DNA of 64,000 bases from an uncultured Clostridia bacterium. GTDB taxonomy: Bacteria; Bacillota; Clostridia; Oscillospirales; CAG-272. The position numbers were made by a program, and so were the translations under genes. The notes beneath the pieces were generated by a model. The model was given only the letters and a program-made list of their open reading frames with translations, was not told the origin of the DNA and did no database searches. The DNA lies in assembly GCA_948466345.1 (NCBI GenBank), contig CAOKAC010000001.1, positions 62,001-126,000 on the forward strand, read 5' to 3'. Positions within the stretch are counted from its first letter, which is position 1, and each line of letters begins with the position of its first letter. Of this stretch, positions 4,130 through 64,000 are shown piece after piece.

Positions 4130-4445
4130 GGGACAATGATACTTGCGTCCAGTCACAGGTCGAGCGTTGAAGCAGAGTGTAATGCTAACCGAGCAAATAT
4201 GCGAAAGCATATTTGACCGCAAAGCTATGCTTTGCGTGCCGTCGCAACCAATGAGGGCGCCTCGGAGAGTTCCTCGGAGGGGTGAGATTCCCATGAGGTC
4301 TGAAAGGCTTTGCCTTTCATCTGCACAGACCGGAAAATGCGTTCCCGTGTATCCGAGGGGCGGCGAGGATCGAATATCGGTAAAGAACAAAACGATTGAT
4401 ACGAATACAAGGCGGCTGTTTCCAGAATGCAAACAACCGCCTTTT
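4130..4445 (+). other. Hairpin-rich leader upstream of the MazF-like gene
   Basis: This region has no convincing gene but a dense run of short hairpins: CAAATATGC-GAAA-GCATATTTG, GCAAAGC-TAT-GCTTTGC and GAAAGGC-TTT-GCCTTTC. It ends in GGCGGCTGTTT (4411-4421) paired with AAACAACCGCC (4431-4441) followed by TTTT. That last hairpin looks like a terminator placed 20 bases before the toxin start. It may be a structured regulatory leader or a separate noncoding RNA. Confidence 0.45.
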
Positions 4446-34361: not shown

Positions 34362-34475
34362 AAAAAGGGCAGTCTCCTTGTGAGACTGCCCAGACGGTCG
34401 GCGCTGCGCTTTTTACTTCATGTGGTAAGCTCCACCAGCGGCCGTACCGCTGTCCGTCAGTAATAAAAAGCGTTG
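34362..34475 (-). promoter_or_regulatory. ZTP (pfl-motif) riboswitch with overlapping terminator
   Basis: On the minus strand the leader shows GTGG-AGCTTA-CCAC-ATGAAGT, then GCGCCGACCGTCTGGGCA, matching the two conserved parts of the ZTP/pfl motif. Its 3' element typically ends CCGCCUGGGCA. The last GGGCAGTCTC (34391-34382) is also the 5' arm of a terminator with GAGACTGCCC (34376-34367) and five T. Ligand binding would therefore compete directly with terminator folding. The gene downstream is pflB. Confidence 0.88.
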
Positions 34476-57284: not shown

Positions 57285-57358
57285 AGCGGAATTGTGTAAC
57301 GGTAGCACGACAGACTCTGACTCTGTTTGTTGGGGTTCGAATCCCTATTCCGCTGCCA
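57285..57358 (+). tRNA. tRNA-Gln (anticodon CTG), CCA encoded
   Basis: The acceptor AGCGGAA pairs with TTCCGCT, discriminator G, CCA. The anticodon loop CTCTGAC gives CTG. GGTTCGAATCC lies in the T arm. The phage-derived segment begins shortly downstream. Confidence 0.96.
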
Positions 57359-57363
57359 AAGCA

Positions 57364-57410
57364 AAAAATCCCCAAAATGCCTTGATTTATAAGGCATTTT
57401 GGGGATTTTT
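57364..57410 (+). terminator. tRNA-Gln terminator
   Basis: AATCCCCAAAATGCCTT pairs with AAGGCATTTTGGGGATT (17 bp), followed by T. Confidence 0.9.
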
Positions 57411-58951: not shown

Positions 58952-59638
58952 TTATATCTCTTTCTGTATATTATATAAACCTATATTCGACTGGAGATCA
59001 TATGCTTTTTTAATATGTGTTTCTGGATTTTCAATAAAATCTTCCCATTTTACAGAAATCATATAAGAACTATCACCGTGATAAACTACAGAGCCGTCAG
59101 CACATGTATATTTATCTGGATTCTTAATATTAAACATATTCTTTTTCATTATTTCAAACACATGATTTGTTAATAAAACACGGCATTCAGAAGTACAACA
59201 AGTTTTGTTATATGTATAATAGTCATACGAACCCCTCGAATCTGGTATGACGATAGCCAACAATGCATTACTATGACTTTTTACTGAATCCCCATTTTTA
59301 TTTTTTCTCGATTCTTCTTTCAGGGAGTAAGAAATTTCCCATGGGATCCACTGATCTCTGTCAGGTTTTAATTCTTTCATCCCCGCAGAAATCATAATAA
59401 TAGTCAAAGTACTATCATAAATTTTATCCTTAAGTTTTTCCCAAATAGTTTCATCAGAAAGAGCAGAAAGATCTTCGCCATCATCTTCACCTTTATAAAT
59501 GTGTTCCGAGGTTTCTGATATATATTCTGCTAATTTGTCAACATATGTTCTGGCTGAATCACTTTGCCATATATTTTCACTGATGCTTTTCACATTACTA
59601 TCTGCATATTTGTAAGAAACAAATATTTTGCGTCCCAT
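58952..59638 (-). CDS. TIR-domain protein, ThsB-like
   Basis: A 228-residue protein with a TIR fold like Thoeris ThsB (DUF1863 type): GRKIFVSYKYADSNV at the N-terminus, IYDSTLTIIMISAGMKE, and DQWIPWEISYSLKEESR, which contains the conserved WE of the family with the catalytic Glu candidate. TIR proteins of this kind make cyclic or amino-acid-linked ADP-ribose signals on infection and activate a partner. I chose the ATG at 59638 (GGAG 8 bases upstream). The membrane protein follows in the same operon. Confidence 0.85.
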   Translation of the reverse strand: MGRKIFVSYKYADSNVKSISENIWQSDSARTYVDKLAEYISETSEHIYKGEDDGEDLSALSDETIWEKLKDKIYDSTLTIIMISAGMKELKPDRDQWIPWEISYSLKEESRKNKNGDSVKSHSNALLAIVIPDSRGSYDYYTYNKTCCTSECRVLLTNHVFEIMKKNMFNIKNPDKYTCADGSVVYHGDSSYMISVKWEDFIENPETHIKKAYDLQSNIGLYNIQKEI

Positions 59639-59707
59639 AACATTCTCCATAAAAAGCCTAATTTTATATTACAGTAATAATAACATAAAAAACAGCCTTT
59701 GTAAATG

Positions 59708-61446: not shown

Positions 61447-62130
61447 TCATCCCTCTCCCAATCTTGGAACCTCACCTACCCGGTGAAAGGTGTTCGCAAA
61501 AGCATACATTGACTTTTGCATCTCCCCCACTTCTGGATCATCACATTGCATCGCACAAAAGTGATATGCAAGCTGTGCTGCGATCCTCCTATCAATTTTT
61601 ATGTTTAACAAACCGCACCACAACGGCAAGCAGGAGTAGTCCACGTTGGCACCCTGTAAGTCGGCATTCCACAAGTCGGCGTTCCGCAAATCGGCATTCT
61701 GTAAGTTGGCATCCCGTAAGCTGGTATCCCGTAAGTTGGCGTTCCGTAAGTCGGCATTCCACAAGTTGGCGCACCGTAAGTTGGCATTCCACAAGTTGGC
61801 GCACCGTAAGTTGGCATACTGTAAGTTGGCCTCTCGTAAGTTGGCCTCTCGTAAGTTGGCGTTCCACAAGTTGGTATCCCGTAAGTTGGCATCCTGTAAG
61901 TTGGCATTCCACAAGTTGGTATCCCGTAAGTTGGCGTTCCGTAAATCGGCGTTCCGCAAGTCGGCGTTCCGCAAATCGGCATTCCACAAGTCGGCATTCC
62001 ACAAGTCGGCATCCCGTAAGTTGGCATCCCGTAAGTTGGCGCACCGTAAGTCGGCGCGTACTCCTGCCGAATCTCCATTCAGCCACTTTTTATGTAGTTC
62101 TAGTATCTCATTTATTTTTGTTTGTTCCAT
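61447..62130 (-). CDS. Pentapeptide-repeat protein
   Basis: A 227-residue protein. Residues about 28-150 are ~25 tandem A(D/N)L(R/W)(D/N/C) units, a right-handed beta-helix. The last ~60 residues are unrelated (LKIDRRIAAQLAYHF). AAGGAG precedes the ATG. Such repeats mimic DNA in gyrase-protecting proteins, but most have no known role. The 15-base units are so uniform that several other frames are also open across them. Confidence 0.85.
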   Translation of the reverse strand: MEQTKINEILELHKKWLNGDSAGVRADLRCANLRDANLRDADLWNADLWNADLRNADLRNADLRNANLRDTNLWNANLQDANLRDTNLWNANLREANLREANLQYANLRCANLWNANLRCANLWNADLRNANLRDTSLRDANLQNADLRNADLWNADLQGANVDYSCLPLWCGLLNIKIDRRIAAQLAYHFCAMQCDDPEVGEMQKSMYAFANTFHRVGEVPRLGEG

Positions 62131-62212: not shown

Positions 62213-63127
62213 TCAATCTGTGATCCAGTCGTCTGCGTTCCAATCCGGAGGATCTCCTCCCGACCTGTACATTATGACGGACAGATACCAATGTCCGTTG
62301 TATTCGTTGTATTTGGGATATGCCCTTACAAACCGATACCCCCGGTATCGTCTTTCCCAAAACTCCCGATCATCTATACGCTGCGTTGCCATGCGTTCTA
62401 CAGTGCGGCGGGACACTTTCCCATCCTTGACCTTTATATCTGGCCTTTCAAGATTGCGCGAACGTCCAAAACGTTTAAATCCCTGTGGATCCTTTGACAT
62501 ATATCTTGCAGCCGCCTCCGGTCCAAATCGTTCCGGTTGATAGGTATTACAATTGACACGCACTCCCTCTCCCCACAGATTTTCCATTTCCCGGGTGGAA
62601 AGCCCTCCAGTGACGAACATATGAAAGTGCCAGTTTATACGCCCGCACAGCTTCCCGGTTTTATATGTCACCTTCTCAATTGCATACATGTACTTAAACG
62701 GTTTCTCTAATTTACTAAGCTCTTTCTGCAGTTTGTCTATAGAAGCAGCGATATAGCTATTATTTGGAATGTCCAACAATAACGCCCGAGCAGATGCAAG
62801 TTCCTTTTCCAGCCGTTTATATTTACCTGCCCGATGGTTTTTAACCCGTCTGAAATAGTTTTGAACATCCCTTCGGGCTTGTTCTTCGCTTTGCGGGGCA
62901 TCTTCTGGTTTGTAAGTAGGATGCAGCAGATAATCTGTTTCGTTAAAATTTGCATTCGCCCAGTGTACAAGTTTTTTGGCTGCCTGTGCCTGATTATATT
63001 TCTTTTGCGCCTCAGTGCTTGGTTTTGTCTTCGGTGCACGCTGTGGCATACGCCGCCCATCCGAAAGCACAGGAAAAAAGTCCGCTTCCAAAAGAGGCCC
63101 GGAACGTATTCTTTTTTCTCTTTGCAT
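62213..63127 (-). CDS. Rolling-circle replication protein, HUH-type
   Basis: A 304-residue protein. INWHFHMFVTGGL contains the HUH histidine pair, and AARYMSKD has the YxxK motif of the nicking tyrosine. Ahead of this lies a ~150-residue helical extension (SASARALL-type). Such Rep proteins open phage or plasmid origins. Starts 3 bases after the DUF6017-like gene. Confidence 0.8.
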   Translation of the reverse strand: MQREKRIRSGPLLEADFFPVLSDGRRMPQRAPKTKPSTEAQKKYNQAQAAKKLVHWANANFNETDYLLHPTYKPEDAPQSEEQARRDVQNYFRRVKNHRAGKYKRLEKELASARALLLDIPNNSYIAASIDKLQKELSKLEKPFKYMYAIEKVTYKTGKLCGRINWHFHMFVTGGLSTREMENLWGEGVRVNCNTYQPERFGPEAAARYMSKDPQGFKRFGRSRNLERPDIKVKDGKVSRRTVERMATQRIDDREFWERRYRGYRFVRAYPKYNEYNGHWYLSVIMYRSGGDPPDWNADDWITD

Positions 63128-63130
63128 AGC

Positions 63131-63550
63131 TTACTCCGCAAAAAATTCCGGTAGATCCGCGCGAACATCGTTTTCCAATCGAGCAACAGCCTCAAATACC
63201 GCATTGTACAGCATAGTCCGCAGATACGTTTTTACAGCATCTACCCTATACGTCAATTTACGATATTTTCGGATAATTTCCTCCACATGTTCATGTTTCA
63301 GAAGCTCATACACCTGCTGCACATGATACGCCGGTAAGGTCTCCCGTCCAATTCTCACAGCGGCATCCCCTGGAAGCTGTGCCATTCCTGCCATAACCAT
63401 TGCAATCTGTTGGGCCATTTCACGATCTTCTGGTTTAAATGCCAAATCCTCGATCTGTTTTCTTGCCGCTTCATACAGCTCGACAAGACTTGGACAGAGA
63501 CTATGACTTATATCAGCGTTAAAATCTGTATTATATTTTGCATGATTCAT
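63131..63550 (-). CDS. DUF6017-like phage protein
   Basis: A 139-residue helical protein. The C-terminal IGRETLPAYHVQQVYELLKH followed by DAVKTYLRTMLYNAVFE matches the C-terminal domain of RepA-like proteins in Firmicutes (DUF6017). The N-terminal HTH of full RepA is absent. It probably aids replication initiation with the Rep gene that follows. Confidence 0.65.
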   Translation of the reverse strand: MNHAKYNTDFNADISHSLCPSLVELYEAARKQIEDLAFKPEDREMAQQIAMVMAGMAQLPGDAAVRIGRETLPAYHVQQVYELLKHEHVEEIIRKYRKLTYRVDAVKTYLRTMLYNAVFEAVARLENDVRADLPEFFAE

Positions 63551-63658
63551 TTTGCAGCGCTCCTATTTATCTTTGTTTGGTTTTTATGGTTGATAAGATA
63601 CTATACAATACAAGGTCGCATGCAGGTGTTTTCTCACCTGCGAATTTGAATTCATATA

Positions 63659-63687
63659 TTGACTTCTCTGCGCCGCCGTGCTATACT
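63659..63687 (+). promoter_or_regulatory. Plus-strand promoter of a candidate small RNA
   Basis: TTGACT (63659-63664), 17 bases, TATACT (63682-63687). It reads against the minus-strand phage genes. Confidence 0.7.
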
Positions 63688-63693
63688 GAATAT

Positions 63694-63762
63694 GGTGTTG
63701 TTAGGCAGCGTGAGTGTTGTCCTGACTGGTCCATCCTTTGCGGAAAGGATGGACCTTTTTTT
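63694..63762 (+). ncRNA. Candidate ~70-nt small RNA
   Basis: Between the promoter above and a perfect terminator (GGTCCATCCTTT 63728-63739 with AAAGGATGGACC 63744-63755, then seven T) there is no room for a gene. The predicted transcript is about 70 bases, intergenic, on the opposite strand to its phage neighbours. Confidence 0.6.
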
Positions 63763-63973: not shown

Positions 63974-64000
63974 TTCACGCCGCCTCCAATATCCCAAGCT

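Follow-up and report, generated by a model that had tools for sequence, protein, structure and literature searches.

A short terminated RNA gene opposite to rep in phage-like elements of Bacillota, a candidate part of a rolling-circle replication origin

What purpose could be served by a promoter and a terminator placed some 70 bases apart in an intergenic region and facing away from all the phage genes around them? The question is raised by a 64,000-nucleotide stretch from an uncultured Clostridia bacterium (the window), in which a sigma-70 promoter, TTGACT-17-TATACT with an extended -10, lies at 63659..63687 (+) and an intrinsic terminator at 63728..63762 (+). The promoter matches the consensus at 10 of 12 bases and has the TG extension. 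The terminator consists of a 12-bp stem with a 4-nt loop (63728-63755) followed by TTTTTTT (63756-63762), and 40 nt separate the -10 from its stem. With a start placed 7 nt past the -10, the predicted RNA of about 69 nt occupies 63694..63762 (+), has a predicted fold of -33.1 kcal/mol (z -5.97) and is antiparallel to the minus-strand phage ORFs. A preliminary description had taken a near-consensus promoter and a perfect 12-bp terminator with seven T, opposite to all neighbours, for a stand-alone small RNA gene. Both signals are indeed present there in that orientation, and the distance of about 70 bases that it gave agrees with the length of the transcript.

Taken alone, each signal is close to the level of shuffled sequence: between 62000 and 64000 there were 4 promoter-like sites (shuffled mean 3.6, sd 1.7) and 3 terminator-like sites (mean 1.6, sd 1.2). 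The combination is rare, as a single one of the 40 promoter-like sites on both strands of the window (at least 10 of 12 matches) was accompanied by a stem of at least 9 pairs and a T-run within 110 nt of the -10, and this was the unit at 63659. No Rfam family reached its gathering score at the window unit or in the loci L005, L023, L061, L065 and L069. The best sub-threshold match, BTnc201 of Bacteroides, scored 27.9 bits (E 0.0056) against a gathering score of 105 and was taken as chance. In other parts of the window a pemK RNA (4133-4296) and a ZMP/ZTP riboswitch (34381-34474) matched Rfam above gathering.

The surroundings of the unit have the look of a rolling-circle replication module. 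The replication initiator (Rep), encoded at 62213..63127 on the minus strand, matches phrog_3584 (E 1.4e-60) and carries H-F-H and Y-x-x-K motifs, of which H167-F168-H169, Y209 and K212 are invariant across 12 aligned Reps. With an HUH motif and a catalytic tyrosine downstream of it, the protein is by its sequence an HUH initiator, and PHROG 3584 is G2P/HUH-like. PF23343 gave 27.2 bits with the window Rep, slightly under the cut-off of 27.8; it was above the cut-off for the Reps of L005 and L061 and slightly under it for that of L058. No PDB match at E 0.001 was obtained when an AlphaFold model of Rep was searched with Foldseek, and a sequence search of the PDB returned no usable match. The first gene past the origin region is a 139-aa ORF (63131..63550, minus strand) with a match to DUF6017 under the cut-off (E 5.8e-4), which its relatives in L005 and L058 exceed; no relative was confirmed when this ORF was used as an IMG/VR query. 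Between the ORF and the unit stands a putative Rep nick motif (63588..63618, minus strand), reading CGACCTTG TATTGTATAGTATCTTATCAACC on the rep-sense strand, and beside it a predicted hairpin (hairpin 1, 63621..63642) whose equivalents in other loci were judged by eye.

The module belongs to an integrated element of about 18.7 kb, bounded by a 46-bp direct repeat of which one copy (57322-57367 of the window) overlaps the 3' end of a tRNA gene and the other (L003:13982-14027) lies behind the integrase. Integrase, several repressor-like ORFs, Rep, a VRR nuclease and two small-terminase-like ORFs are carried by the element, and none of its 19 proteins scanned against PHROGs was a capsid or tail protein; we regard it as a phage satellite or a deleted prophage. 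The integrase region (L003:12705-13914) consists of two ORFs of 113 and 281 aa, and the integrase may be broken. Also within the element is a ThsB-like TIR-domain protein (window 58952-59650, minus strand), a possible anti-phage gene. A pentapeptide-repeat protein is encoded at 61447-62130 (minus strand) of the window, and its coding DNA is open in further frames on both strands.

A search with the DNA of the unit through 97 genomes, its own and 96 relatives, matched its own genome alone. Loci were collected through Rep, whose relatives occur in 12 of 394 genomes of the window's order and 2 of 391 of its class. This gave 29 distinct upstream regions including the window; L047 and L049 were added via the motif, and the resulting 31 loci contain the close pairs L010/L011, L015/L016 and L039/L040. 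A CTTGTA core in similar surroundings is found on the rep-sense strand in 28 of the 31, with an adjoining hairpin seen by eye, and is absent from the stretch searched in L030, L031 and L038. A unit is present at the equal place and on the equal strand in 14 of the 31 distinct loci, the window included. Its -35 box is 38-42 nt from the motif in 12 of these 14 core units, the distance being 52 nt in the window and 58 nt in L008. A further 14 loci have the motif and no unit at that place, and the unit is thus not essential everywhere; L032, with a promoter 114 nt from the motif and a repeat score of 5, was counted among them. L035 escaped the motif rule and entered from separate inspection, while L011, a near copy of L010, is one of the 14 units and was left out of the 13- and 20-unit statistics given below. 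Among loci devoid of the sigma-70 unit, L062, L047, L024, L025 and L019 were seen by eye to have a hairpin and a TTATATATA-like stretch beside CTTGTA, perhaps another kind of start site.

The unit is also found farther afield. A promoter-shaped DNA pattern retrieved nine contigs from IMG/VR, of which L044 is the contig of L005 and L060 runs off the contig end. The IMG/VR contigs L053 and L058 carry the unit with a divergent Rep downstream on the opposite strand; the pattern matches L054-L057 and L059 were rejected, having repeat scores of 4-8 and no CTTGTA within 100 nt. Thirteen further records were inspected, five of which have promoter and terminator, all opposite to rep. Four are the Latilactobacillus phages TMW 1.1381 P1, 1.1365 P2, 1.46 P2 and 1.1365 P1, virions from induced lysates according to their records, with Reps 25-28% identical to that of the window and a different spacing between unit and motif. 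The fifth, Terrisporobacter phage TPDSL_ph2, was reached via the Rep of TMW 1.1381 P1. The other eight are without the unit and include Faecalibacterium phage FP_Toutatis, which has the motif, Butyrivibrio phage Arawn and a Paraclostridium plasmid; Faecalibacterium phage Lelie (L067) stands outside the 13. L066, with a repeat score of 6, was counted as a unit on its promoter and terminator. All 20 units examined are opposite to rep, and none of the seven sense-strand promoter-like sites in the 13 further records has a terminator. The reading as a stand-alone small RNA gene is thereby strengthened, since ahead of related Rep genes the same promoter, terminator and transcript length are met again, together with a hairpin on the RNA strand. 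A lack of conservation in related phages, which the preliminary description held would speak against such a gene, is not what was found, though about half of the Rep loci are without the unit.

A second feature sets these promoters apart. The -35 box and spacer can pair with a stretch past the -10, forming an inverted repeat between the promoter and the early transcript. In the window the left arm (CTC..CGCCGCC; 63666..63677, +) lies in the promoter spacer and is worn, and the right arm (GGCAGCG.GAG; 63704..63714, +) lies in the early transcribed region; on the rep-sense (template) strand they form 10 bp with one G.T. The window copy scores 5, a value matched or beaten in 207 of 300 shuffles. 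Over 13 loci the pairing of each left arm with the right arm of its own locus sums to 135, against a mean of 97 and a maximum of 125 when partners are permuted (0 of 20000 permutations, L011 and L032 left out); related loci are non-independent samples, which makes such p-values optimistic. Scores of at least 9 occur in 12 of 20 units and in 9 of 211 other promoter-like sites of the same DNA (means 9.75 and 5.81), and five ordinary promoters with an equal -35/spacer pattern score 4-8. The arm sequences vary among loci and the pairing is kept. The sixth -35 base covaries with its partner, the pair being T-A in 8 units, A-T in 4 and a C.A mismatch in one, with the remaining units not aligned there.

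Folded as DNA, the template strand has a mean z of -2.94 over the 20 units, and its minimum-energy structure pairs at least three -35 bases in 14 of 20 and at least three -10 bases in 14 of 20, both being raw counts without a shuffle control. The individual folds differ. In the window the -35 and the -10 are both unpaired, L026 (z 0.51) and L069 (z -0.38) fold no better than shuffles, and L064 and L065 bring the paired -35 and -10 next to each other by looping out the spacer, unlike the geometry of a normal promoter. The mismatch types in the arms (3 G.T, 4 A.C) are uninformative as to which strand folds. RNAalifold on a MAFFT alignment recovered the terminator, with both-sided changes in 7 of its 8 pairs, and missed both the inverted repeat and the RNA hairpin described next. 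A match between the untranscribed half of a promoter and the transcript is to be expected only if the strand folds as DNA or if a rep-sense transcript folds.

The same right-arm stretch has an alternative partner in the segment ahead of the terminator, with which it forms hairpin A of the RNA (63700..63726, +). Sharing this segment, the inverted-repeat fold and hairpin A are mutually exclusive. Hairpin A folds on the RNA strand in 13 loci and on average not on the complement (mean z -2.05 versus -0.29), and G-U makes up 32 of its 127 pairs in these loci. Its pairing sum was reached by permuted halves in 230 of 20000 cases and by shuffled stretches in 0 of 300. The window has a good hairpin A despite its worn repeat. 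Being better on the RNA strand, the hairpin suggests that the transcript itself is under constraint. The predicted RNA is 67-72 nt long in all 13 core units measured and 48-85 nt in six others, and a lenient rule finds a terminator in 19 of 20 units. Stems of 6 bp were used to measure L036 and L053; the exception, L058, did not pass the T-run rule, yet a G+C-rich stem and a T-rich tail are visible there.

What the sequence comparison shows to be conserved is the place and direction of the unit, its promoter and terminator, the length of the RNA, the covarying repeat and the hairpin on the RNA strand. The reading that we favour, tentatively and at somewhat less than an even chance, is that the RNA gene may belong to an origin module: a single-strand origin that depends on RNA polymerase and at the same time gives a short antisense RNA. 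Rolling-circle plasmids displace their rep-sense strand. On this strand the unit is placed immediately 5' of the putative nick, and the RNA has the complementary sequence that a primer would need. We infer the nicked strand, the use of the unit as single-stranded DNA and the priming. Rep would nick the rep-sense strand at CTTG/TA, and this strand would be displaced during replication; just 5' of the nick it would fold back, making parts of the -35, the spacer and often the -10 double-stranded. Host RNA polymerase would recognise the folded promoter and transcribe the displaced strand, and the short RNA would prime second-strand synthesis as at ssoA-type single-strand origins and Frpo. From double-stranded DNA this promoter would produce the terminated, two-hairpin RNA of about 70 nt, which may act antisense on the rep leader. 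The RNA would presumably stay hybridised to a single-stranded template, and on a double-stranded one the terminator would free it. Several observations count against an origin. A conserved terminator is more what one expects of a released RNA than of a primer, as is the constraint on hairpin A, which priming does not need; in the window itself the repeat is no better than shuffles and the -35 and -10 are unpaired.

The terminator and hairpin A lend weight to the main rival, a cis-antisense RNA comparable to plasmid countertranscripts or lambda OOP, in which the 70-nt RNA would pair with the leader of the rep operon and lower Rep through RNase III or a refolding of the leader; we consider it a serious though rather unlikely alternative. 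It would account for a discrete, terminated RNA of near-constant length in the core units with a constrained RNA-strand hairpin. In the units seen, the RNA is complementary to DNA ahead of rep, and its 5' tail, for the most part unpaired, would come upon the loop that the inverted repeat forms in the leader, possibly as the first contact. However, in the window 144 nt separate the complement from the nearest phage start codon downstream, and the complement falls in no annotated-size ORF of the element. In 13 loci the following 150 nt gave the freed arm no significant partner of the kind an attenuator has, 13 of 200 shuffles reaching the best pairing, and the covariation of the untranscribed -35 and spacer with the transcript is left unexplained. 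Control of the early phage genes, which the preliminary description had suggested, may occur, though neither this distance nor the search for an attenuator supports it; an origin function is indicated instead, because the unit adjoins the putative nick site and the inverted repeat spans the promoter. For a counter-silencing or immunity RNA, its other suggestions, no sign was seen.

Other explanations give less room to the RNA. The promoter activity may itself be what matters, outgoing transcription hindering the early operon or supercoiling the nick region, as has been suggested for lambda pO. A short opposing promoter beside a putative origin fits that comparison, but the covarying repeat, the RNA-strand hairpin and the length would go unexplained, and we find the proposal improbable. 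More doubtful again is that the inverted repeat serves a double-strand origin as a cruciform or as a binding site for Rep or a repressor, with promoter and terminator secondary to it: the near-fixed spacing to the motif in 12 of 14 core units would be expected of such a site, whereas arm sequences that vary while their pairing stays, a different spacing in the Latilactobacillus phages and the lack of a unit at half of the motif loci would not. Finally, promoter and terminator could have met by chance without any function, given that each alone is near its expected count, that the 96 relatives show no nucleotide similarity and that the window repeat is worn. Recurrence at the equal place in distant relatives, and the finding of a close terminator behind just 1 of the window's 40 promoter-like sites, make this very improbable.

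A bolder form of the origin reading, which we consider distinctly unlikely, combines the two roles in a dual-state RNA gene of tailed phages, whose promoter would be recognised on the displaced strand and whose RNA would both prime the second strand and report replication to rep as an antisense RNA. If this were true, RNA output would be proportional to the single-stranded intermediates, and the segment shared by the two folds would then refold as an RNA hairpin. The literature searched, which takes in few subscription papers, describes no single-strand origin and no such RNA in tailed phages with a PHROG 3584-type Rep. Likewise, it contains no account of how the second strand is started in phages or phage-like elements with this HUH-type Rep. 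A compact and recognisable origin module would allow such origins to be annotated. Phages and phage-like elements that bear this Rep occur in gut Bacillota, and the induced Latilactobacillus phages make the question testable in food bacteria.

Known systems resemble the unit in part. The countertranscripts of the rolling-circle plasmids pT181 and pMV158 are short antisense RNAs in front of rep; the RNA described here is likewise short, antisense and ahead of rep, but unlike them it does not overlap a start codon and, in 13 loci, has no attenuator partner. Lambda OOP RNA, transcribed from pO, is also a short antisense RNA near phage replication genes. It is a cautionary case: taken at first for a primer, it proved to be an antisense RNA, while its promoter does influence replication (PMC3985674, PMC12197685); pO affects replication and the levels of oop RNA do not (PMC3985674). 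OOP targets the cII message, whereas the complement here falls in a gap without a phage coding gene, at an origin that looks rolling-circle. Nor does the RNA overlap the 3' end of an upstream gene as OOP does, the 234-aa minus-strand ORF ending at 63975, about 212 nt past the RNA end. Like ssoA, ssoU, ssoT and ssoW of rolling-circle plasmids and sso1 of ICEBs1, the unit is orientation-specific, lies near a Rep origin (here a putative one), may fold as a single strand with promoter elements for host RNA polymerase, though the window, L026 and L069 do not clearly exceed shuffles, and would give a short RNA. It differs from them in belonging to phage modules, in a near-consensus promoter fit for double-stranded DNA too and in the intrinsic terminator behind it. 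The conserved sequences of ssoA include RSB and CS-6. In known cases an sso is a folded promoter that works in one orientation and is recognised by host RNA polymerase (PMC4595007, PMC5703833). As the likeness concerns layout and predicted fold, the unit is kept outside the named sso classes. Frpo, the best studied case, mimics double-stranded promoter DNA (PMC11541004). As in the Frpo/ssi promoters of F-like plasmids, the -35 and the -10 may be partly paired with downstream sequence, each of them in 14 of 20 template-strand folds and neither in that of the window, and a single strand could in this way mimic a promoter; Frpo serves the leading-region genes after conjugation, whereas the unit would yield a terminated RNA of about 70 nt.
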